From Sphaerochaeta associata (GTDB taxonomy: Bacteria; Spirochaetota; Spirochaetia; Sphaerochaetales; Sphaerochaetaceae): a stretch of 64,000 bases of DNA. The notes beneath the pieces were generated by a model. That model did not search any database. It was not told where the DNA came from and saw nothing but the letters and a program-made list of their open reading frames with translations. The DNA lies in NCBI RefSeq assembly GCF_022869165.1, contig NZ_CP094929.1, forward strand, positions 1,302,001 through 1,366,000. Direction: 5' to 3'. The position numbers were made by a program, and so were the translations under genes. Below are positions 3,001 to 11,980 of the stretch, piece after piece; the stretch's first letter is position 1, and the number at the start of each line of letters is the position of its first letter.

Positions 3001-3720
3001 ATGGAAGCCGCCAGTCAGTGCCAGAATTGCACAAACGACCGCTGTATACGCAGCGTCCCCCTCTTCGCCTCCCTGGAACCGGAGGCGGTGCATGCCCTAA
3101 CCGCCCAGATGGAGCATCGGAGCTTTCAGAAAGGAGAGATACTGGTGAGGGAGGGGGATTTAGCAAAGGGTTTCACGGTAATCCGCGAGGGTAGTGCCAA
3201 GGCATACCGGACCAATGCCGACGGCAGGGAGCAGATATTATACATCTTTCCTGCAAACGACTACTACGGAGCACGATTTCTGTTTACCGAAGAGAGGGTT
3301 CCCTACACGGTCGAGGCGTTGGAGGAGACACACGTCTGCATCCTCAGCAAGGCGCAGTTCGCATCGTTGCTTGAAAAACACAGCTCGGTTGCACTGCAAA
3401 TCATCGAGGCGATGGCGAACCGGATGAGCCGCCTTGAAACGGCGATGCAGAGCATGGGAGGCAGGAATGCCGACCTCAGAATTGCAAGCCTGTTGCTTGA
3501 ATTCAAGCAGCCCTACGGCCGTTACAACGGACCTTATCTTGAAATAACCCTTCCCCTGAGCAGGGAAGGGTTGGCTAATTATCTTGGGCTGGCCCGCGAG
3601 ACGCTCAGTCGCAAGCTGGTTCAGTTCGAGGAAGAGGGCTTGGTCGAGCTCGTCGGGCAGAAGGTGGTACGCATCCTGGACCTTGAGCGTCTGGTCGGCC
3701 TCTCGGTTATGGTCGATTAG
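3001..3720 (+). CDS. Crp/Fnr family transcriptional regulator, FNR-like cysteines
   Basis: 239 residues: N-terminal cyclic-nucleotide-binding-type beta roll, a long dimer helix and a C-terminal winged helix with the recognition segment ARETLSRKL typical of FNR/CRP. Cys7, Cys10 and Cys15 at the N-terminus plus Cys113 (ETHVCILSK) match the four cluster ligands of E. coli FNR in arrangement (the last N-terminal spacing is one residue shorter), so an oxygen-labile 4Fe-4S cluster is plausible. The ATG at 3001 has AGGAG 5 nt upstream. A TTG at 2977 lies inside the operator and is less likely. The divergent pflBA is the likely target. Confidence 0.88.
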   Translation: MEAASQCQNCTNDRCIRSVPLFASLEPEAVHALTAQMEHRSFQKGEILVREGDLAKGFTVIREGSAKAYRTNADGREQILYIFPANDYYGARFLFTEERVPYTVEALEETHVCILSKAQFASLLEKHSSVALQIIEAMANRMSRLETAMQSMGGRNADLRIASLLLEFKQPYGRYNGPYLEITLPLSREGLANYLGLARETLSRKLVQFEEEGLVELVGQKVVRILDLERLVGLSVMVD

Positions 3721-4253
3721 CTGTTTTGCATCGCTTTCGTATAGATGCTCTCTATCTCCTTTTTCCCCATCAATGCCTGAAGCAGGTAGGCGATGATGAT
3801 GATACCCGGAATATCGACGAGCAGCCGGGTTAGGGCGAAGGGAAGACCGAGTGCAGAGAATTCAAACAGGATCATCGGAATCTTGGTGGTGGACCAGGCT
3901 CCGAGGAAGATCAGGATGTTGGAGAACTTCACCCCTTTTCTCATGAACACGGCAGCCACCGGGAAGGCTCCGTAGAGGGGACCTGCTGCAGCTGAACCGA
4001 TGAAAAGGGCGAGCAGTATTCCTTTCAAGCCGCTGCCTTCCCCCATGTATTTGACCATGGTCTGCTTGGGAACCCAGATGTCCAGAAGCCCGAGGAGCAC
4101 GAAAATGGGAGGAATCACCAACAGCATCTCCTTGAGTTGGTATGCCGTTGTGCTCAGTACCTGCTGTCCAAGCTCCTTATTGAAAAGACCGGCAAGCAAC
4201 AGGACCACCGATACAATCAAGAATGAGCGATAGCGCTTCACAAAATGCTTCAT
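3717..4253 (-). CDS. Permease-like membrane protein, second half of a two-gene pair
   Basis: 178 residues with about five hydrophobic segments. It belongs with the YraQ/DUF318-type permease family, in which each half carries a conserved glycine/proline-rich segment (here IGSAAAGPLYGAFPVAAVFMR). Substrate is unknown; some relatives are tied to metal or arsenical handling. The start at 4253 has GGAGG 7 nt upstream and overlaps the stop of the upstream half by ATGA, showing translational coupling. A longer reading frame starting further upstream is out of frame with the partner and lacks membrane character. Its 3' end overlaps the convergent Crp/Fnr stop by 4 nt. Confidence 0.75.
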   Translation of the reverse strand: MKHFVKRYRSFLIVSVVLLLAGLFNKELGQQVLSTTAYQLKEMLLVIPPIFVLLGLLDIWVPKQTMVKYMGEGSGLKGILLALFIGSAAAGPLYGAFPVAAVFMRKGVKFSNILIFLGAWSTTKIPMILFEFSALGLPFALTRLLVDIPGIIIIAYLLQALMGKKEIESIYTKAMQNS

Positions 4254-4735
4254 ACTACTGCCTCCATGACCTGCCCGATGACGAAGGCCACAAGGAACGA
4301 AAAGACAAACGCAAGAGCGTTGCGATAGAGTGCAAGCTTTTTGCCGAAGTACTGCATTTCCACCGGAAGGGTGACGATGCCGACCATCATCAACGTTGAG
4401 ATGAACGCCCCGATTTGCATGTACCCGGCTCCTCCGTTGACTAAAAGAGCCGCAGTGGGGAAGGCGACAAATCCGGGAATCAGAGTGACCGCCCCTACGA
4501 TGGCTGCAAGCAGCACTCCCAGCCAACCGGATTCAGAACCGATTATTCTGAGAATCATCCGGTGGTCGAGCAGGCTGAGCAACAGACTGACGAGCAGGAT
4601 GACGACCAGAAACTGGGGAAGAATGTTTTCAAACGCCTTCCATGCTTTCAGTAAAGCCTTGCGGGTTTTCTCTCGGTCTTTTACAAAAGAGAGAAGCAGC
4701 AGTGCAGCGGTTGCACTATATAAAATGATGTTCAT
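4250..4735 (-). CDS. Permease-like membrane protein, first half of a two-gene pair
   Basis: 161 residues, mostly hydrophobic, with a cytoplasmic KDREKTRKALLKAWK helix followed by membrane segments and the motif VTLIPGFVAFPTAALLVNGGAGY. This mirrors the partner gene's IGSAAAGPLYGAFPVAAVF, so the pair probably forms one pseudo-symmetric transporter split into two chains. The start at 4735 lies downstream of a palindrome-rich leader. Function and substrate cannot be read from the sequence. Confidence 0.75.
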   Translation of the reverse strand: MNIILYSATAALLLLSFVKDREKTRKALLKAWKAFENILPQFLVVILLVSLLLSLLDHRMILRIIGSESGWLGVLLAAIVGAVTLIPGFVAFPTAALLVNGGAGYMQIGAFISTLMMVGIVTLPVEMQYFGKKLALYRNALAFVFSFLVAFVIGQVMEAVV

Positions 4736-4961: not shown

Positions 4962-5405
4962 ATGGCAAATGTACAATCGATTCTGGATAAAAAAGGGAGT
5001 ACGGTAATCAGCATCGGACCCGATGATGCCCTTTCTCATGCACTCTTGAAACTGACCGAGCACAAAATCGGTGCATTGTTGGTACTCAACGAGCAGGGTG
5101 ACATCAAGGGAATCCTCTCTGAAAGAGACATCATCCGGCATTTCTCCAAGAGACTTGAGCATCTCAATACTGGTTCCATCAAGGTGCGCGAAGTGATGAC
5201 GACCGGAGTAACCTATGTCAAGCCTCATCAAAGCAGTGAGGACTGCCTGCAGCTCATGACCGCAGGTCGCTTCCGTCACCTTCCGGTTGTTGATGGAGAA
5301 AAGGTCATCGGCATGATATCCATCGGGGATGTGGTCAAGGCGGCCTTGGAAGAACGCGATTTCCAGATCGGCGAGCTTGAGCACTACATCACGAATGCCT
5401 ACTGA
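4962..5405 (+). CDS. CBS-pair domain protein
   Basis: 147 residues made of two tandem CBS motifs (about residues 15-70 and 80-140; typical GILSERDIIRHF and GMISIGDVV strands at the ends of each). Such stand-alone CBS pairs bind adenosyl nucleotides (AMP, ATP, SAM) and usually regulate a partner. Nothing else is fused here. GGAGG lies 6 nt before the ATG. It is divergent from the permease pair and followed by its own terminator, so it is monocistronic. The specific role is not predictable. Confidence 0.88.
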   Translation: MANVQSILDKKGSTVISIGPDDALSHALLKLTEHKIGALLVLNEQGDIKGILSERDIIRHFSKRLEHLNTGSIKVREVMTTGVTYVKPHQSSEDCLQLMTAGRFRHLPVVDGEKVIGMISIGDVVKAALEERDFQIGELEHYITNAY

Positions 5406-5507: not shown

Positions 5508-6731
5508 ATGGACGATAAGAAAATTCAGAGGCTGAAGGAAATCATAGAAAGACTGCACAGTGGCGCTTCCAGTGATGAAGTGAAGAAGGATTTCGAGGCT
5601 GAATTCGGCACGGTGAGTGCAGAGGAGTTGGCTGCAGCCGAACGCAAGCTCATGGAAAGCGGTGCCATTGTTGTAGAGCAGGTCCAGAAGCTCTGTGATG
5701 TACACGCCTCGGTCTTTGGCGGCAGCATTGAAGAGATTCATCAGGGCAAGCAAGCCGACAAGACTCCCGGTCATCCGGCATTTGTTTTCATCAAGGAAAA
5801 CGAGGGGCTGACGAGTTTCATCAATACCGAGTTCAGCAACGCTGTAAAAGCCTACAAACAGGACAAGAGTGAAGCCGCCAAAGCGAATCTGCTTGCAGAG
5901 CTGAAGAGCCTGAGCAAGCTCGACAAGCACTATGCCCGAAAAGAGAATCTCTTCTTCCCCTATATGGAGAAAGCCGGGATCACTGCTCCTCCGAAGGTTA
6001 TGTGGGGGGTGGACGATGAGATTCGCGATCTTTGGAAATCCTGCATTCGCAGTCTTGAGACTGAGGGGACTGTACAAGAAGCCTCACTGGACAAGTTGAT
6101 CGAACAGGTACTGGGCATGATCAACAAGGAGAACAACATCCTCATGCCGATGCTCTCAGGTGTAATGGATGGTGATTCCTGGCTTACGGTCGCCCGCGAC
6201 AGCGCTGATATCGGATACTGTTTCAACGGAGGAATCGAGGGTGCAAGTCCTTCTGATGCCTTGACCTGGTACCGCTGGAATGCAAGTATGAGCGGCAAAG
6301 AGGACTTTGCTCCAAAACAGGAGACAAGTGGAGAGATCGTGCTGCCCAGCGGCCATCTTAACCTCGAAGAGTTGACTTGGATGCTCAACACGCTTCCAGG
6401 CGATGTCACCTTTGTTGGTGCCGATGACAAGGTCCGCTATTTCAGCGAAGGAAAGGACAGGGTTTTCCCACGTACCCGCAGCATCGTTGGACGCGAAGTA
6501 GCTCACTGCCATCCTCCCAAGAGCCTGGCTGTCGTCGAGAAGCTGGTCGAGGATTTCAAGGCCGGTCTGAAGGACAGTGAATCCTTCTGGATCCAGAAAG
6601 GCACCATGTTCATCCTGATTCGTTACTTTGCAGTCCGCAATGAGAAGCAGGAGTATTTGGGAGTCGTGGAAGTGACGGAAGAGATTTCCTCCCTGAGGAG
6701 TCTGGAGGGACAGAAGACCCTGCTCAGCTGA
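5508..6731 (+). CDS. DUF438 / hemerythrin-like / PAS domain protein
   Basis: 407 residues. N-terminal DUF438 segment (about 1-75), a hemerythrin-like helical region (about 80-250) with metal-ligand type histidines in GHPAFVFIKENE and KHYARKENLFFPYME, and a C-terminal PAS domain (about 290-400). Proteins of this architecture occur in fermentative anaerobes and are thought to sense redox or oxygen or NO through a di-iron or haem site; the output partner is unknown. AGAAGGAG precedes the ATG. The stop is followed by a strong bidirectional hairpin, so the gene is alone. Confidence 0.85.
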   Translation: MDDKKIQRLKEIIERLHSGASSDEVKKDFEAEFGTVSAEELAAAERKLMESGAIVVEQVQKLCDVHASVFGGSIEEIHQGKQADKTPGHPAFVFIKENEGLTSFINTEFSNAVKAYKQDKSEAAKANLLAELKSLSKLDKHYARKENLFFPYMEKAGITAPPKVMWGVDDEIRDLWKSCIRSLETEGTVQEASLDKLIEQVLGMINKENNILMPMLSGVMDGDSWLTVARDSADIGYCFNGGIEGASPSDALTWYRWNASMSGKEDFAPKQETSGEIVLPSGHLNLEELTWMLNTLPGDVTFVGADDKVRYFSEGKDRVFPRTRSIVGREVAHCHPPKSLAVVEKLVEDFKAGLKDSESFWIQKGTMFILIRYFAVRNEKQEYLGVVEVTEEISSLRSLEGQKTLLS

Positions 6732-6739
6732 GCAGTCAG

Positions 6740-6769
6740 AGGGCTGTAGGAGAGTGCTCCTATAGCCCT
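6740..6769. terminator. Bidirectional hairpin terminator between convergent genes
   Basis: A 13-bp stem (6740-6752 with 6757-6769, one G-T pair, 4-nt loop) lies between the DUF438 stop and the convergent 90-residue gene, whose stop codon is inside the hairpin. Confidence 0.7.
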
Positions 6770-7032
6770 TGCTCCTTCTTAAGTTGATTCATGAACGCCA
6801 GATAGGCGTAGATTTGCCCTTGTATCTCTGCATTTTTCAATACGCCCCTGCCTCCCCAATCCTGACCTTCGTAGACGGTCAGGTGATAATACTCACCTTC
6901 AAGGTCTAACATATTCAGGGGGCTGATTTTCTGTCTGGTTCTCAAATAATGCAGCGTAGTATCATACGCCTCATGGAAAGCACGCTGCTCTCCGGTGAGG
7001 TCCGGGTCGTGATCATCGTGTATCGTGTTCAT
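6760..7032 (-). CDS. Conserved hypothetical protein in the ndh2 operon
   Basis: 90 residues, acidic N-terminus (MNTIHDDHDPDLTGEQ), soluble, no membrane segment or signal peptide, no cysteines. Contains aromatic/charged stretches (GEYYHLTVYEGQDWGGRG) and looks like a small alpha/beta protein. I do not recognise a family. It starts 8 nt after the polyprenyl synthase stop with AAGGA as binding site, so it is the third gene of that operon. Confidence 0.65.
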   Translation of the reverse strand: MNTIHDDHDPDLTGEQRAFHEAYDTTLHYLRTRQKISPLNMLDLEGEYYHLTVYEGQDWGGRGVLKNAEIQGQIYAYLAFMNQLKKEQGL

Positions 7033-7040
7033 GCAAATCC

Positions 7041-8027
7041 TTATACAGAGCGCTTCGATAATTTGGTAAAGAGATTGCCAAGCTGTCTCTCAACCTGAGG
7101 ATGCGCAAGCCGCTTGATGTCCGAGAGCGCACGCATCTTGTATGATTCTGCAAGAATTTCTGCTTTTTGTACACCACCCAAAGATTCAACCAAGACCAGC
7201 GCCTGTTTTACGGTTTTTTCTTTTAATGGAACTGTAGAACTAAGCAGTAGATCCCGCAATTCCGCTCCTCCATTCCGTTGTTCCTGGTCCAAGGCATAGA
7301 TGAGCGGCAGGGTGGGGATCCCGCACTTCAAGTCATTGCCTGTCTGCTTACCAAGCTTGGATGAACTTCCTGCATAATCGAGAACGTCGTCTTGGATTTG
7401 GAAGGCCATACCCATGCAGTACCCGATTCTATGACACAGCATCTGCTTGACCGGAGGTGCTTCCTGCAATGCAACACCCGAATAACAACTCAATGCGAAC
7501 AGACTTGCCGTTTTTCCTGCAATCCTTCGGAGGTAGGTGTGTCGAGAGATGAGGAAATCACCTTGCCCTGCATCCTGGTCAAGCTCGCTTTCACACAAGC
7601 GGGAGAGAGCGGCAGAGACCACCCTGCTGTCCATTCCCCGTTCTTTGCCGCTTGTCAGCAGCAAGGCTTTCGCCAAGAGAAAATCACCGGCGAGGACTGC
7701 CTGCTTGGCTCCTACCTTGGCGTAGACCGTGGATTTGCCTCTGCGCTTGGAGGCGGAGTCAATAATATCGTCATGCACAAGAGAGGCCAAATGAATCAGT
7801 TCAATAACCGACCCAACCCTGACGGCATCCTCGGTGATCGAGTGCTCGCCTAGAGCGCTTGTAATCAAGACCAGTGCTGGTCGCAGCATTTTTCCCACCG
7901 ACTGGACATGGTCGAGTAAAATCGGACGGATAAAGCCATGAGCAGTGGCCACCGTATTTTCGATGGTACTGCTCACGTGTAGAAGCTGCTCTTTGAGTTC
8001 CTGCTCATCGTTCCAGAAATCGGTCAT
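7041..8027 (-). CDS. Polyprenyl diphosphate synthase (trans-isoprenyl, DmkB/IspB type)
   Basis: 328 residues of the all-alpha trans-prenyltransferase fold. GKMLRP (substrate entry), first aspartate-rich motif LVHDDIIDSASKRRGK and second FQIQDDVLDYAG are all intact, so it should be active. Such enzymes build the C30-C40 side chain of quinones or lipid carriers. It begins 6 nt after the NADH dehydrogenase stop, which ties it to a quinone for that enzyme; in Listeria the equivalent DmkB makes demethylmenaquinone for extracellular electron transfer. Exact chain length cannot be read. Confidence 0.9.
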   Translation of the reverse strand: MTDFWNDEQELKEQLLHVSSTIENTVATAHGFIRPILLDHVQSVGKMLRPALVLITSALGEHSITEDAVRVGSVIELIHLASLVHDDIIDSASKRRGKSTVYAKVGAKQAVLAGDFLLAKALLLTSGKERGMDSRVVSAALSRLCESELDQDAGQGDFLISRHTYLRRIAGKTASLFALSCYSGVALQEAPPVKQMLCHRIGYCMGMAFQIQDDVLDYAGSSSKLGKQTGNDLKCGIPTLPLIYALDQEQRNGGAELRDLLLSSTVPLKEKTVKQALVLVESLGGVQKAEILAESYKMRALSDIKRLAHPQVERQLGNLFTKLSKRSV

Positions 8028-8033
8028 GCCTTC

Positions 8034-10148
8034 CTACTTTTTCCCCAATTTCCGTTCCATCTGGCGTTTGGTGAACTCGGGTTCATCAAGATAGAAGTAG
8101 GTTTTCTTGGCAAGCGGAGTTTTATTCCACAACTTCTTCAGATAAGGCATCACCCAGTAGTCCAGACCGAAGGCCTTGCCTGCTCCTCCGAGCATGACAA
8201 TCGATACCGCCATATACCAAAGAATCTCTTTGCCTGCCAATGCCCCGATCAGGAACATGACCGACAAGCCCAAGGATACGATGGCGGCAGGGAAGGTAAA
8301 CAGACCGGCAAAGAGGGCAAGTCCGATACCAACTTCAGCCAGTACGATCATCAGCTGGAACAGATAGGGAGCCTGGGCTACAAATGTATTGTTGATCCAG
8401 GTGAAGATTGCCAAAGGCTGGGAGAGCAGGGGAGGAGCAAACTGCTCGACTGCACCGCTCTCAGCAATCGATTGGCTGACGGCTGCGACGGTATCAACAA
8501 CCGTCTGGCTTGCAGAGGCTGCGGTCTCGACAACCCATTGGGTTGCCGATGATGCAGCTTCCACTGCCGGCTGGCTGGCGGAAGCCACGGCTTGCACTGC
8601 CGGTTGACTTGCCGATGCTACAGTCTGATACGCAGTCTGACTGACCGAAGCTACGGTGTCGGCTACCGCCTGACTTGCCGAGGCGACTGTTTCAGTAACC
8701 GCTTGGCTGGCAGAGGCCCATGCATCGGAAACACTGCCGGCAGGAGCTCCCCAATATACCTTTGAGCCGGTTGTATCGGTAAGCCAGCCTTTCTGTATTT
8801 TCCCAACTCCCTCAATAAACCACATTACACCCAGATACATTCTGAGGAAGGTTGTCCAATAGGAGGGAACCTTGTAGGCAGCCAAACCACCGATGAGGGA
8901 GCGGTTGTGCTTTATTTCCAGTATCTCATGCTTGATGTACGCCCAAGCACCGTTTACGCCACATACACCGCTCTGGTAATAGATGTTCACCATATGCTTG
9001 AGGGCCATGGCGAAGAAGCCTGAGAGGGACATGCCGGCGGTATGACTCACTGCATACTTTCCACCGATGGAAACCATGAATCCGTGGAAGTTCGACTTGA
9101 ACGGCTTGGGGTGCTCGGCTTTGAGGCCGAGTTCACTCTTGACTGCATAGATTACACCATCGGCCGCAGTCTTTGCAGTCTGTTCGGCGGCTTCAACTAT
9201 CTGGGGAACTGCACGGTTATTCTCCAAAAACCACATGCCGTCACCGACGAGGTAGACGTTCTGGTAATCGGGGCTTTGCATATATTCATTGACGAGTTTT
9301 CTGCCGATCTTACCATCGGTAAGCGGAAGCTTCTCGCAGAATTCCGTTCCGCGAACGCCGCAGGTCCAGACCAGCGTCTTTGTTTTGATCACTTCGCCGC
9401 TTTTGGTGGTGAAGCCTTCGGCATCGACTTGGGTGATCAGGGAGTTGAGCTTAATCTCAACGCCTTGTTTCTCCAGGTATTTTACAGCCTTTGCCCTGGG
9501 TTTCTCCGGAAGCATGTTCAAAATGCTTCCCAGTGCTTCTGCGCTGATAAGCCTGCCTTCCTTCTTGAAGTCAATGCCGTTTTCCTTGCACAGGATCGGT
9601 AGCCATTCAGTGAGTTCACCCACCAGCTCGATGCCGGTGAATCCACCGCCGGCAACCACGAAGGTAAGCATCTGTCTGCGCTTTTCACTATCGGCTTCAC
9701 GGCTTGCATCCTTGACAACCTGTTCGATATGGCAGCGGATGCGAAGTGCATCCTCAAGACTCCACAAGTAGAATGCGTGCTCCTTGACACCGGGTATGTT
9801 GAAGTCGGCGGTGGTGGCACCTGTCCCGATGATCAGTTGGTCATATCCGTAGCTTGCACGATCGCCTTTGAGTGTCTGGTTCTTGAAATCGATGTCGATA
9901 ATGGTGTCCTGTACGACATTGACCATTTTGCCGGAGAAAATGCGGTCGAAGGATATTTTTACGGAATCCTCTTCAACACGGTTACCGGCGACTTCATGCA
10001 GCTCAGTCATGAGAATGTGGTGACGGTTCTTGTCAATCAAGGTTATTTCAACCTTGTCTTGATGCTTCTTGAATGCTTTGTGCAAGGTTTTTGCAGCGTG
10101 TACTCCGGCGTATCCCCCGCCCAATACCACAATCTGTTTCTTGTCCAT
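8034..10148 (-). CDS. ndh2: Type II NADH dehydrogenase fused to a DoxX-like membrane domain with hendecad repeats
   Basis: 704 residues. The first about 420 are a two-dinucleotide flavoprotein: FAD motif VLGGGYAGVHAA at the N-terminus and NADH motif VVAGGGFTGIELVGEL near residue 170. From about 425 follows a DoxX-like integral membrane module (FLRMYLGVMWFIEGVGKIQKG, then three further membrane segments to the C-terminus). Between its first and second helices lie eight near-perfect 11-residue repeats of the type ASASQAVTETV (about 477-564). The ATG at 10148 has GGAAGGAA; an upstream in-frame start would add an unmatched 32 residues. It probably oxidises NADH and passes electrons to a quinone at the membrane. 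Confidence 0.88.
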   Translation of the reverse strand: MDKKQIVVLGGGYAGVHAAKTLHKAFKKHQDKVEITLIDKNRHHILMTELHEVAGNRVEEDSVKISFDRIFSGKMVNVVQDTIIDIDFKNQTLKGDRASYGYDQLIIGTGATTADFNIPGVKEHAFYLWSLEDALRIRCHIEQVVKDASREADSEKRRQMLTFVVAGGGFTGIELVGELTEWLPILCKENGIDFKKEGRLISAEALGSILNMLPEKPRAKAVKYLEKQGVEIKLNSLITQVDAEGFTTKSGEVIKTKTLVWTCGVRGTEFCEKLPLTDGKIGRKLVNEYMQSPDYQNVYLVGDGMWFLENNRAVPQIVEAAEQTAKTAADGVIYAVKSELGLKAEHPKPFKSNFHGFMVSIGGKYAVSHTAGMSLSGFFAMALKHMVNIYYQSGVCGVNGAWAYIKHEILEIKHNRSLIGGLAAYKVPSYWTTFLRMYLGVMWFIEGVGKIQKGWLTDTTGSKVYWGAPAGSVSDAWASASQAVTETVASASQAVADTVASVSQTAYQTVASASQPAVQAVASASQPAVEAASSATQWVVETAASASQTVVDTVAAVSQSIAESGAVEQFAPPLLSQPLAIFTWINNTFVAQAPYLFQLMIVLAEVGIGLALFAGLFTFPAAIVSLGLSVMFLIGALAGKEILWYMAVSIVMLGGAGKAFGLDYWVMPYLKKLWNKTPLAKKTYFYLDEPEFTKRQMERKLGKK
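8456..8719 (-). repeat. Eight 33-bp repeats coding 11-residue hendecads inside ndh2
   Basis: The coding strand repeats ASASQ-x5-V/A eight times in register (ASASQAVTETV, ASASQAVADTV, ASVSQTAYQTV, ASASQPAVQAV, and so on). Eleven-residue periodicity is typical of extended amphipathic helices or right-handed coiled coils. Boundaries are approximate to about 10 bp. Confidence 0.75.
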
Positions 10149-10618
10149 GGTTCCTTCCTTACGGCGGCCCTTGCTGACAAGGGCTTGCAATATACGAATC
10201 TTTGTATAGCGTTGCAACAAGGATTTTTGCGGATGTACAGTCACGCTACCTTACTGCGTTGGTAGAAAAACACTCTAGCACAGAAGTAGGAATTTATGCA
10301 ATTGTGTCATTTTTTATCGAATATAGTTTTTCACATTTTTTACATTAACACCATACTGTAGGAGATGAAAAAATAAATAAATCTCTGTGGGAAACGAATT
10401 ATTGGTAAAATAGTGAAAAAAAATGTATCGATATTTTTATATCTAAGTAAAGCAATCGGATTACTTGCCTATGGAACTCTTTATAATATAATTACATATC
10501 AAGATAATCTCGTAATTGCGAATGACTATTGATAATTTTAGGACGATATTGCAAAACTGTAATAGTTCTGTATATGATTATATCAACGAATGATGAAATT
10601 ACCTAGGAGTTAATGACC
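10149..10618. other. AT-rich divergent intergenic region between ndh2 and the FMN-binding lipoprotein
   Basis: About 470 bp without an open frame. It is much more AT-rich than the flanks, especially 10290-10600, and must hold both promoters. I find no perfect CRP/FNR dyad, riboswitch or terminator in it. The long AT-rich leader ahead of the lipoprotein is unusual for this window. Confidence 0.4.
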
Positions 10619-11926
10619 ATGAGAAAGAACGTGTTGGCTGTACTTGCAGCTGTTGTTTTGATCTCTCTGTTCGTCTTCACCGGCTGCTCGAAGTCTGAAG
10701 CGAAAACCGCAACCCCGGCACCTGCTGCTGCACCTGCTGTAGCTGCACCTGCTCCCGCCCCGGCCCCGGCCCCGGCTCCTGCTGCTGCAAAGTATGCCGA
10801 TGGCATCTATTTTGCCGCCGACGATGCGTTCGCTTCCTCCGGCTGGAAGGAAACCGTAACCTTGACTGTCAGTGGTGGAAAGATTGTCGAAGCTGACTGG
10901 AATGCAGTAAACATTTCCGGTGGTGCCGACAAGAAGACCTATGACAAGGCTGGGAAGTACAACATGGTGAAGTTCGGCAAAGCCCAGGCTGAATGGTATC
11001 AGCAGGCCGAGAAGGCCGAGGCCCACCTCCTGAAGACCCAGGATCCTGCAGCAATAAGCTATAAGGACAGCGAAGGTCACACAGATGACATCGCCGGTGT
11101 CTCAGTCCATGTGGATGCATTCTTCGAACTTGCTGCCAAGGCTCTTGCAGCCGGTCCTGTCGGTCGCGGTCCGTATGCCGATGGTGCTTACTTTGCCATC
11201 GATGAGGCCTATCCCTCCTCCGGTTGGAAGGAATATGTCTCCCTGACCGTTCTCAACGGCCGCATTGCAGCTGTCAACTGGAGTGCCGTGAACCGCAATG
11301 GGGATGACAAGAAGGCCTATGACAAGGCTGGAAAGTACAACATGGTGAAGTTCGGCAAGGCTCAGGACGAGTGGTATGTACAGGCTCAGAAGACCGAGGA
11401 GTACCTGCTCAAGACCCAGGACCTCAATGCCATCACCTACAAGGATGATGCCGGTCATACAGACGACATCGCAGGGGTCTCCGTACACGTAAACTCCCTC
11501 TTTGATCTGGCCAAGAAGGCACTGGACAACGGTCCTGTCGGGCTTGGTCCCTTCTCCAACGGCGGCTACTATGCAACCGAGGAAGCGTTCGGTTCGTCAG
11601 GCTGGAAGGGATTTGTTTCTCTCTTCGTAAACAACGGCAACCTCGTCAATGTCTACTGGAGTGCAGTGGATAAGGACAATCGTGACAAGCAGACCGTTGC
11701 AGCTGAGGGTGGTTACGGCATGATCAAGGCCAGCAAGATCGGGAAGGAATGGAATGAGCAGGCAGTGGCGGTTCAGAACCACCTCCTCTCCACCCAGGAC
11801 CCCAAGAAGATCACCTACAAGGACGATGCCGGTCATACCGATGACATCGCCGGTGCCAGCGTGCATGTAAACGACTTCTATGCCTTGGTTGAGAAAGCTC
11901 TCGCCAATGGAGTAAAGAAGTACTAA
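10619..11926 (+). CDS. Lipoprotein with three FMN-binding-type repeats (PplA-like)
   Basis: 435 residues. Signal peptide with lipobox VFTGC (Cys23), an Ala-Pro linker (about 32-57), then three repeats of about 115-125 residues. Each begins YADGxYFA/GYYATEEAF and has SSGWK, WSAV and a terminal TYKDDAGHTDDIAG(V/A)S motif. This matches the FMN-binding domain family (NqrC C-terminal/PplA), in which ApbE links FMN to a Ser/Thr in such a motif. ATG 10619 is 9 nt after AGGAG; ATG 10613 is too close. Divergent from ndh2, it may be a flavinylated surface electron carrier; the FMN itself is inference. Confidence 0.8.
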   Translation: MRKNVLAVLAAVVLISLFVFTGCSKSEAKTATPAPAAAPAVAAPAPAPAPAPAPAAAKYADGIYFAADDAFASSGWKETVTLTVSGGKIVEADWNAVNISGGADKKTYDKAGKYNMVKFGKAQAEWYQQAEKAEAHLLKTQDPAAISYKDSEGHTDDIAGVSVHVDAFFELAAKALAAGPVGRGPYADGAYFAIDEAYPSSGWKEYVSLTVLNGRIAAVNWSAVNRNGDDKKAYDKAGKYNMVKFGKAQDEWYVQAQKTEEYLLKTQDLNAITYKDDAGHTDDIAGVSVHVNSLFDLAKKALDNGPVGLGPFSNGGYYATEEAFGSSGWKGFVSLFVNNGNLVNVYWSAVDKDNRDKQTVAAEGGYGMIKASKIGKEWNEQAVAVQNHLLSTQDPKKITYKDDAGHTDDIAGASVHVNDFYALVEKALANGVKKY

Positions 11927-11950
11927 TCGTCCGAAATCGACAGTATCAGG

Positions 11951-11980
11951 ACCCCGGGGATTGCTCTCCGGGGTTCATTA
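11951..11980 (+). terminator. Intrinsic terminator after the FMN-binding lipoprotein
   Basis: ACCCCGG (11951-11957) pairs with CCGGGGT (11968-11974), extended by an imperfect pair, and is followed by a short T-containing tail. Confidence 0.65.

Follow-up and report, generated by a model that had tools for sequence, protein, structure and literature searches.

The window, a stretch of 64,000 nucleotides from Sphaerochaeta associata, covers bases 1302001-1366000 of a single-contig genome of 3.55 Mb. All four genes of the locus lie where the earlier note had placed them (Table 1). Three of them form one minus-strand operon, in which the gene for a type II NADH dehydrogenase (ndh2) is followed after 6 nt by a polyprenyl diphosphate synthase gene and, after another 8 nt, by a gene for a protein of 90 residues; the fourth, encoding a lipoprotein, is divergently oriented. 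The ndh2 open reading frame spans 8034-10244 (-), and the ATG at 10148, preceded by AAGGAAGG, is its likely start. Both transcription units are bounded by terminator-like hairpins (consensus matches only).

Table 1. Features of the ndh2 locus of S. associata (positions in the window).
Feature	Position	Strand	Remarks
Third operon gene, small protein of 90 aa	6760..7032	-	Outside known families; predicted three-helix bundle
Polyprenyl diphosphate synthase (DmkB-like)	7041..8027	-	PF00348, NCBIfam TIGR02748, comparison with Listeria
ndh2, type II NADH dehydrogenase (FLEET type)	8034..10148	-	704 aa from ATG 10148; FAD/NAD domain (approximately residues 1-430) and C-terminal DoxX-like membrane module
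Variable-length spacer in the C-terminal module of Ndh2	8448..8750 (approximate)	-	Degenerate repeats of approximately 11 residues, ASASQAVxETV
Divergent intergenic region between ndh2 and lipoprotein gene	10149..10612		Layout as in Listeria pplA/ndh2
Sigma-70-like site in the intergenic region	10465-10492	+	10/12 consensus matches; consensus only
PplA-like lipoprotein	10613..11926	+	Lipobox FTGC; three FMN-bind-type repeats (DDIAGVS, DDIAGVS, DDIAGAS)
Terminator-like hairpin closing the ndh2 operon	6739..6770		Faces the convergent DUF438 gene; consensus match only
Terminator-like hairpin 3' of the lipoprotein gene	11949..11976	+	Consensus match only

In Listeria, the FLEET pathway exports NADH-derived electrons via a quinone and a flavin-carrying lipoprotein, and comprises the genes ndh2, pplA, fmnB, dmkA, dmkB, eetA, eetB and fmnA. 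As comparison loci we used those of L. booriae (L142) and L. riparia (L138), in which the combination of Ndh2 (with its C-terminal extension), DmkB and PplA named in the earlier note was indeed present. The S. associata dehydrogenase aligns with the FLEET Ndh2 of L. booriae from end to end, C-terminal module included (37% over 692 aa, E 5e-137). Together with a Pfam match to Pyr_redox_2 (E 2.4e-37), this bears out the initial description as a type II NADH dehydrogenase with a C-terminal membrane module, and the protein thus has the membrane extension of FLEET Ndh2. Solved structures of ordinary Ndh2 enzymes match the N-terminal 430 residues only (best 4nwz, E 1.6e-57) and have no C-terminal module.

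The C-terminal part has weak similarity to DoxX (Pfam). Used alone as a query, the module retrieved, among named genomes, spirochaetes and then Listeria, Streptococcus, Globicatella, Clostridium, Abiotrophia and Weissella, and a GLDYWVMP segment as well as other positions are invariant across 20 aligned modules from spirochaetes and Firmicutes. A low-complexity spacer, ranging among species from almost nothing to about 100 residues, separates the first predicted membrane helix from the remaining ones. Its repeat is seen at the protein level only, as Tandem Repeats Finder detected no repeat in the DNA of the spacer. The spacer is predicted, with low confidence, to form long helices; AlphaFold modelled the C-terminal module poorly (pLDDT 54), and this model was set aside.

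The second gene of the operon is, as proposed, a polyprenyl diphosphate synthase (PF00348, E 1.5e-57). Its best NCBIfam match is TIGR02748 HepT (E 1.7e-59, under the cut-off of that model), and the protein is 34.7% identical to the prenyl synthase of Listeria FLEET. A DmkA-like DHNA prenyltransferase is encoded outside the window (genome 1955583-1956533; PRK06080.1-1, E 2.2e-52, under its cut-off). This is the single UbiA-family protein of the genome, has DHNA polyprenyltransferases as its nearest relatives and is 30% identical to Listeria DmkA. Counterparts of both dmkA and dmkB are therefore present, the latter in the operon and the former elsewhere.

The search for the quinone head-group pathway covered MenB, MenD and MqnA/D. 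With control genomes positive in each case, neither MenB nor MqnA/D (futalosine pathway) was found in the genome, and no MenD scored above the cut-off in 25 genomes of the genus (hits of approximately 80 bits, far under the required 244). Of the menaquinone genes that were to be checked, the DHNA prenyltransferase is therefore present, but neither of the two marks of a menaquinone prototroph that were searched for, MenB/MenD and the futalosine pathway, was found. Since these were not found while dmkA and the prenyl synthase are retained, uptake is the simplest reading: the head group is probably scavenged, likely as DHNA or a relative taken from neighbours. The apparent absence of head-group genes thus predicts dependence on the DHNA-type quinones of neighbours. 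There is a precedent in Lactiplantibacillus plantarum, a quinone auxotroph that has FLEET, lacks head-group genes and performs extracellular electron transfer (EET) on exogenous DHNA (PMC10746273, PMC8837199). A TAXI-type TRAP transporter (genome 1956593-1960145) is divergent to dmkA and adjoins it in the other Sphaerochaeta genomes looked at, though not in sister genera; that it imports a quinone precursor is only a guess.

The divergent gene encodes, as the earlier note had described, a lipoprotein with three FMN-binding-type repeats. The three tandem domains are 35-52% identical to each other, and a repeat matches the solved single domain 2kzx_A (E 8.5e-39). Against the NCBIfam PplA model NF041941 the protein scores 93.7 bits (E 1.1e-26), far under the curated cut-off of 325 bits; we therefore name it PplA-like rather than PplA. 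Listeria PplA itself scores 424 bits on this model, and the two proteins share 21% identity (E 2e-9). Short Pfam matches to HutF_N and Caleosin were judged spurious.

ApbE joins FMN to the final residue of a [S/T]GA[S/T]-like motif (PMC8238504). The corresponding motifs of the lipoprotein read AGVS, AGVS and AGAS, so that none conforms to the strict consensus and the acceptor serine alone is kept. Across 15 lipoproteins, the acceptor position is Ser or Thr in all 43 motif instances, while the flanking positions drift: one sister genus has SGVT, another carries SGAT in its third repeat, AGAT also occurs among the relatives, and two other spirochaete genomes have SGVS. Because the acceptor is invariant while its flanks drift, flavinylation appears plausible but non-canonical, and the drifted AG[VA]S motif offers a test of how strict recognition by ApbE is. 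Tandem FMN-bind-type domains on one chain are known from the multi-flavinylated proteins SaFMN3 and CbFMN4 (PMC10339131), and the repeat is a close relative of 2kzx_A; the motif there is DxxxGAT (SaFMN3/CbFMN4) or DAISGAT (2kzx), in contrast to DDIAGVS or DDIAGAS here.

The 90-residue protein has no Pfam or NCBIfam match, and a profile search returned nothing convincing (best E 0.037). Its presence in 24 of the 25 other members of the genus searched indicates a real gene, which always follows the prenyl synthase gene in the genus loci fetched. The predicted structure is a three-helix bundle (pLDDT 88) with a conserved GxDWxGRG..K..E stretch, for which no PDB fold match was obtained at E <= 0.001. 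The gene is missing from several complete clusters of sister genera, and homologues in other spirochaete families adjoin unrelated genes (clpS-clpA, TolC-type, topoisomerase), which argues for a family general to spirochaetes. Examples of such loci are L068:7611-8191 (clpS-clpA), L066:7746-8000 (a DJ-1-like/topoisomerase pair) and L064:618-878 (chloride-channel-like). The proposal that this gene is a new FLEET member thus stands as regards a real, operon-linked gene, but the protein is not always present and its homologues turn up in other settings; it is best described as an optional, operon-linked accessory, and its status as a FLEET component is weakly supported.

Homologues of EetA/EetB, DmkA and FmnB, which the earlier note had not seen in the window, were all found elsewhere in the genome. 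Two ApbE genes are present, one of which (ApbE1, genome 1219058-1220104) is FmnB-like (E 3.8e-96) and has the lipobox LGSC, so that an extracytosolic FmnB/ApbE-type flavin transferase is available. The presence of ApbE by itself was rejected as proof of FLEET. Since Rnf and Nqr also require ApbE, identity to the ApbE encoded inside the clusters of sister genera is a better test: it amounts to 55-62% for ApbE1 and to 36-42% for ApbE2. Rnf-like and Nqr-like FMN_bind proteins, which require ApbE, are also encoded in the genome.

The genes for EetA (NusG_II) and EetB (PF07456) overlap each other (genome 1197887-1199363). The EetB of Listeria serves as the ECF-S subunit that exports FAD and is required for flavinylation of PplA (PMC9973259). 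In a profile comparison, the C-terminal domain of the S. associata EetB resembles Listeria FmnA only weakly (hhalign probability 77%), and three CbiQ-family proteins are encoded elsewhere in the genome. In the EetB tree, the EetB of the genus groups with stand-alone forms, apart from the cluster form; EetA/EetB of the genus thus belong to a stand-alone clade that is also found in genomes without the pathway cluster, and for this reason are not specific evidence. The proposed search for apbE/fmnB, eetAB and dmkA was accordingly positive for all of them, but EetAB are not orthologues of the cluster type. Either the stand-alone pair may have taken over, or FAD export may differ in Sphaerochaeta. 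The presence of EetA/EetB as such was rejected as proof of FLEET, as many genomes of the family carry the pair and lack the Ndh2 C-terminal module or dmkA. Such homologues occur, for instance, in family members without a listed Ndh2 module or dmkA match (L081-L088), where they probably serve another need for flavin export.

Two further flavin-linked operons deserve mention. The Rnf-like operon (genome 1608785-1611452) has a transposase-like ORF (370 aa, L017 9541-10653) between rnfG and rnfE, and the RnfE match begins at residue 27 of its ORF, so an altered N-terminus is possible. The Nqr-like operon (genome 2463149-2467029) encodes an NqrC-like protein and an NqrF that scores above its curated cut-off; an adjoining NqrA was not seen.

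The locus is conserved across Sphaerochaeta, a comparison that the earlier note had proposed: the order CBS protein - DUF438/hemerythrin protein - 90-aa protein - prenyl synthase - ndh2 is kept in all 13 genomes of the genus that were fetched, and the lipoprotein gene comes next, divergent to ndh2, in each of the 12 whose contig extends that far. Here ndh2, the prenyl synthase gene and the pplA-like gene are found together; in sister genera, the full set pplA-eetA-eetB1-eetB2-apbE-ndh2-prenyl synthase forms one cluster (10 complete genomes, and 3 more cut by contig ends). The clusters of the sister genera therefore tie together the genes that are scattered in Sphaerochaeta. Within the family, the Ndh2 C-terminal module occurs in 21 of 61 genomes, 19 of which have a dmkA match (fused query, among the matches listed); among the matches listed for these 61 genomes, from which weak matches may be missing, no dmkA was found in a genome without the module. 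In a sample of 198 genomes from the phylum, 11 genomes from seven families have the module. In the nine Spirochaetota neighbourhoods fetched from outside the family, ndh2 always adjoins a prenyl synthase gene; four of them have dmkA adjacent or nearby, two have a PplA-like gene close by, and one has an adjoining apbE. Because this pair is constant and the other genes are patchy, we regard Ndh2 and the prenyl synthase as the conserved core.

Compared with Listeria FLEET, the S. associata system shares an Ndh2 with a homologous C-terminal membrane module, the divergent arrangement of pplA and ndh2, a prenyl synthase, a PplA-like lipoprotein and, elsewhere in the genome, homologues of the DHNA prenyltransferase, the lipoprotein ApbE and EetA/EetB. 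It differs in that the host is diderm and the genes are scattered over approximately 760 kb, in the lack of a match for head-group biosynthesis, in the 90-aa third gene, in the long variable spacer of Ndh2 and in the fusion of EetB to a second membrane domain. Furthermore, Listeria PplA has two FMN-bind repeats with the motif TGAT, in contrast to three with AG[VA]S in the Sphaerochaeta lipoprotein. L. plantarum resembles S. associata in combining dmkA and a prenyl synthase with the lack of a head-group pathway and a fermentative metabolism, and its ndh2 and pplA have a common intergenic promoter region, similar to the layout observed here (PMC8837199, PMC10746273); unlike S. associata, it is monoderm and has an intact cluster with demonstrated activity.

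FLEET is described as a Gram-positive system, in which the lipoprotein faces the outside directly. Based on gene content, homology and synteny, we consider that the locus is probably the Ndh2/DmkB/PplA part of a FLEET-type electron-export pathway in a diderm spirochaete, and that it likely works like FLEET. The related NADH-to-surface path proposed in the earlier note thus holds as a FLEET-type gene set, but the "surface" part is putative in a diderm. In such a pathway, Ndh2 would oxidize cytosolic NADH and reduce an inner-membrane quinone of the demethylmenaquinone type, the tail of which would be supplied by the prenyl synthase and coupled by the DmkA-like enzyme to a naphthoquinone head group, DHNA or a relative from neighbours. 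FAD for flavinylation would leave through the EetA/EetB-type ECF system, and ApbE1 would attach FMN to the three repeats of the lipoprotein. The C-terminal membrane module of Ndh2 would probably conduct electrons from the quinol to these flavins, and the lipoprotein, located either in the periplasm or at the outer surface, would pass them to acceptors outside the inner membrane, such as Fe(III), humics or soluble shuttles. For a fermenter, such export of electrons would provide a means of NADH disposal.

The gene set suggests a two-membraned fermenter that exports electrons using a borrowed vitamin-K-like molecule. The literature searched contained one claim of flavin-based EET genes outside the Gram-positives, for Ca. 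Effluviviacota (PMC11323493), where NADH is said to enter via a Nuo-type complex with EetAB/DmkAB/FmnAB, in contrast to the FLEET-type Ndh2 of Sphaerochaeta. No description of FLEET in spirochaetes was found in the literature searched, which is weak evidence, since subscription papers were mostly outside reach. In published reports, Sphaerochaeta is a recurrent member of electroactive and anode communities, with no known mechanism. The Ndh2-type set of Sphaerochaeta and the complete cluster of the sister genera extend FLEET to cultivated diderms, and pose the question by which route electrons of a flavin-lipoprotein cross the outer membrane. The broader view, that the Sphaerochaetaceae and some other spirochaetes possess a complete diderm Ndh2-FLEET with a scavenged naphthoquinone and a tri-flavin AG[VA]S lipoprotein bridging outward, and are quinone-cross-feeding electron exporters, we hold to be about evenly balanced between right and wrong.

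Other endpoints for the electrons have to be weighed. Spirochaete lipoproteins are often surface-exposed, which counts against an endpoint in the periplasm. In that scenario, which we regard as unlikely, the lipoprotein would be anchored to the inner membrane, or else to the inner leaflet of the outer one, and reduce soluble Fe(III), quinones or a reductase of the periplasm, serving iron assimilation or redox balance without extracellular transfer. The diderm host would fit, none of the genes examined was identified as an outer-membrane conduit, the conserved neighbours are the DUF438/hemerythrin and CBS proteins instead of an outer-membrane protein, and flavinylated systems often serve iron assimilation (PMC8238504). 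However, the genes correspond to those of Listeria, whose pathway is known to reduce extracellular acceptors, and no iron-uptake gene was recognized in the conserved neighbourhood of the genus and sister loci. It is also conceivable, if rather improbable, that Ndh2 acts on small exogenous naphthoquinones, which in reduced form diffuse out and themselves reduce the acceptors, leaving the lipoprotein as an accessory or devoid of FMN. L. plantarum can reduce an anode without PplA, and its dmkA/dmkB mutants keep DHNA-dependent EET (PMC8837199, PMC10746273); the AGVS/AGAS motifs deviate from the ApbE consensus, and the constant pairing of ndh2 and prenyl synthase in the nine neighbourhoods outside the family, of which two have a PplA-like gene, agrees with such a shuttle. 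The conservation of the divergent lipoprotein gene in all 12 genomes of the genus whose contig covers it, the invariant acceptor Ser/Thr and the retention of dmkA, on the other hand, speak against a shuttle.

The Rnf-like and Nqr-like operons would be in line with an altogether different reading, in which Ndh2 is an ordinary quinone-linked NADH dehydrogenase of an unrecognized respiratory chain, and the PplA-like protein serves Rnf/Nqr and lies beside ndh2 by chance. We disfavour this reading and consider it highly improbable: no cytochrome bd passed the cut-off in the genome (control genomes positive) and the search for a quinone head-group pathway was likewise negative, Ndh2 has the C-terminal module of FLEET, the divergent arrangement is also the FLEET one, and in the clusters of the sister genera apbE and eetAB sit between pplA and ndh2.

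The DUF438/hemerythrin/PAS protein (window 5508-6731) and the CBS-domain protein (4962-5405) are neighbours of the locus in all 13 genomes of the genus, whereas neither was found next to it in sister genera; a function as O2 or NO sensor is possible. Upstream of this conserved neighbourhood lie two adjoining ArsP_1-type permease ORFs (window 3717-4735).
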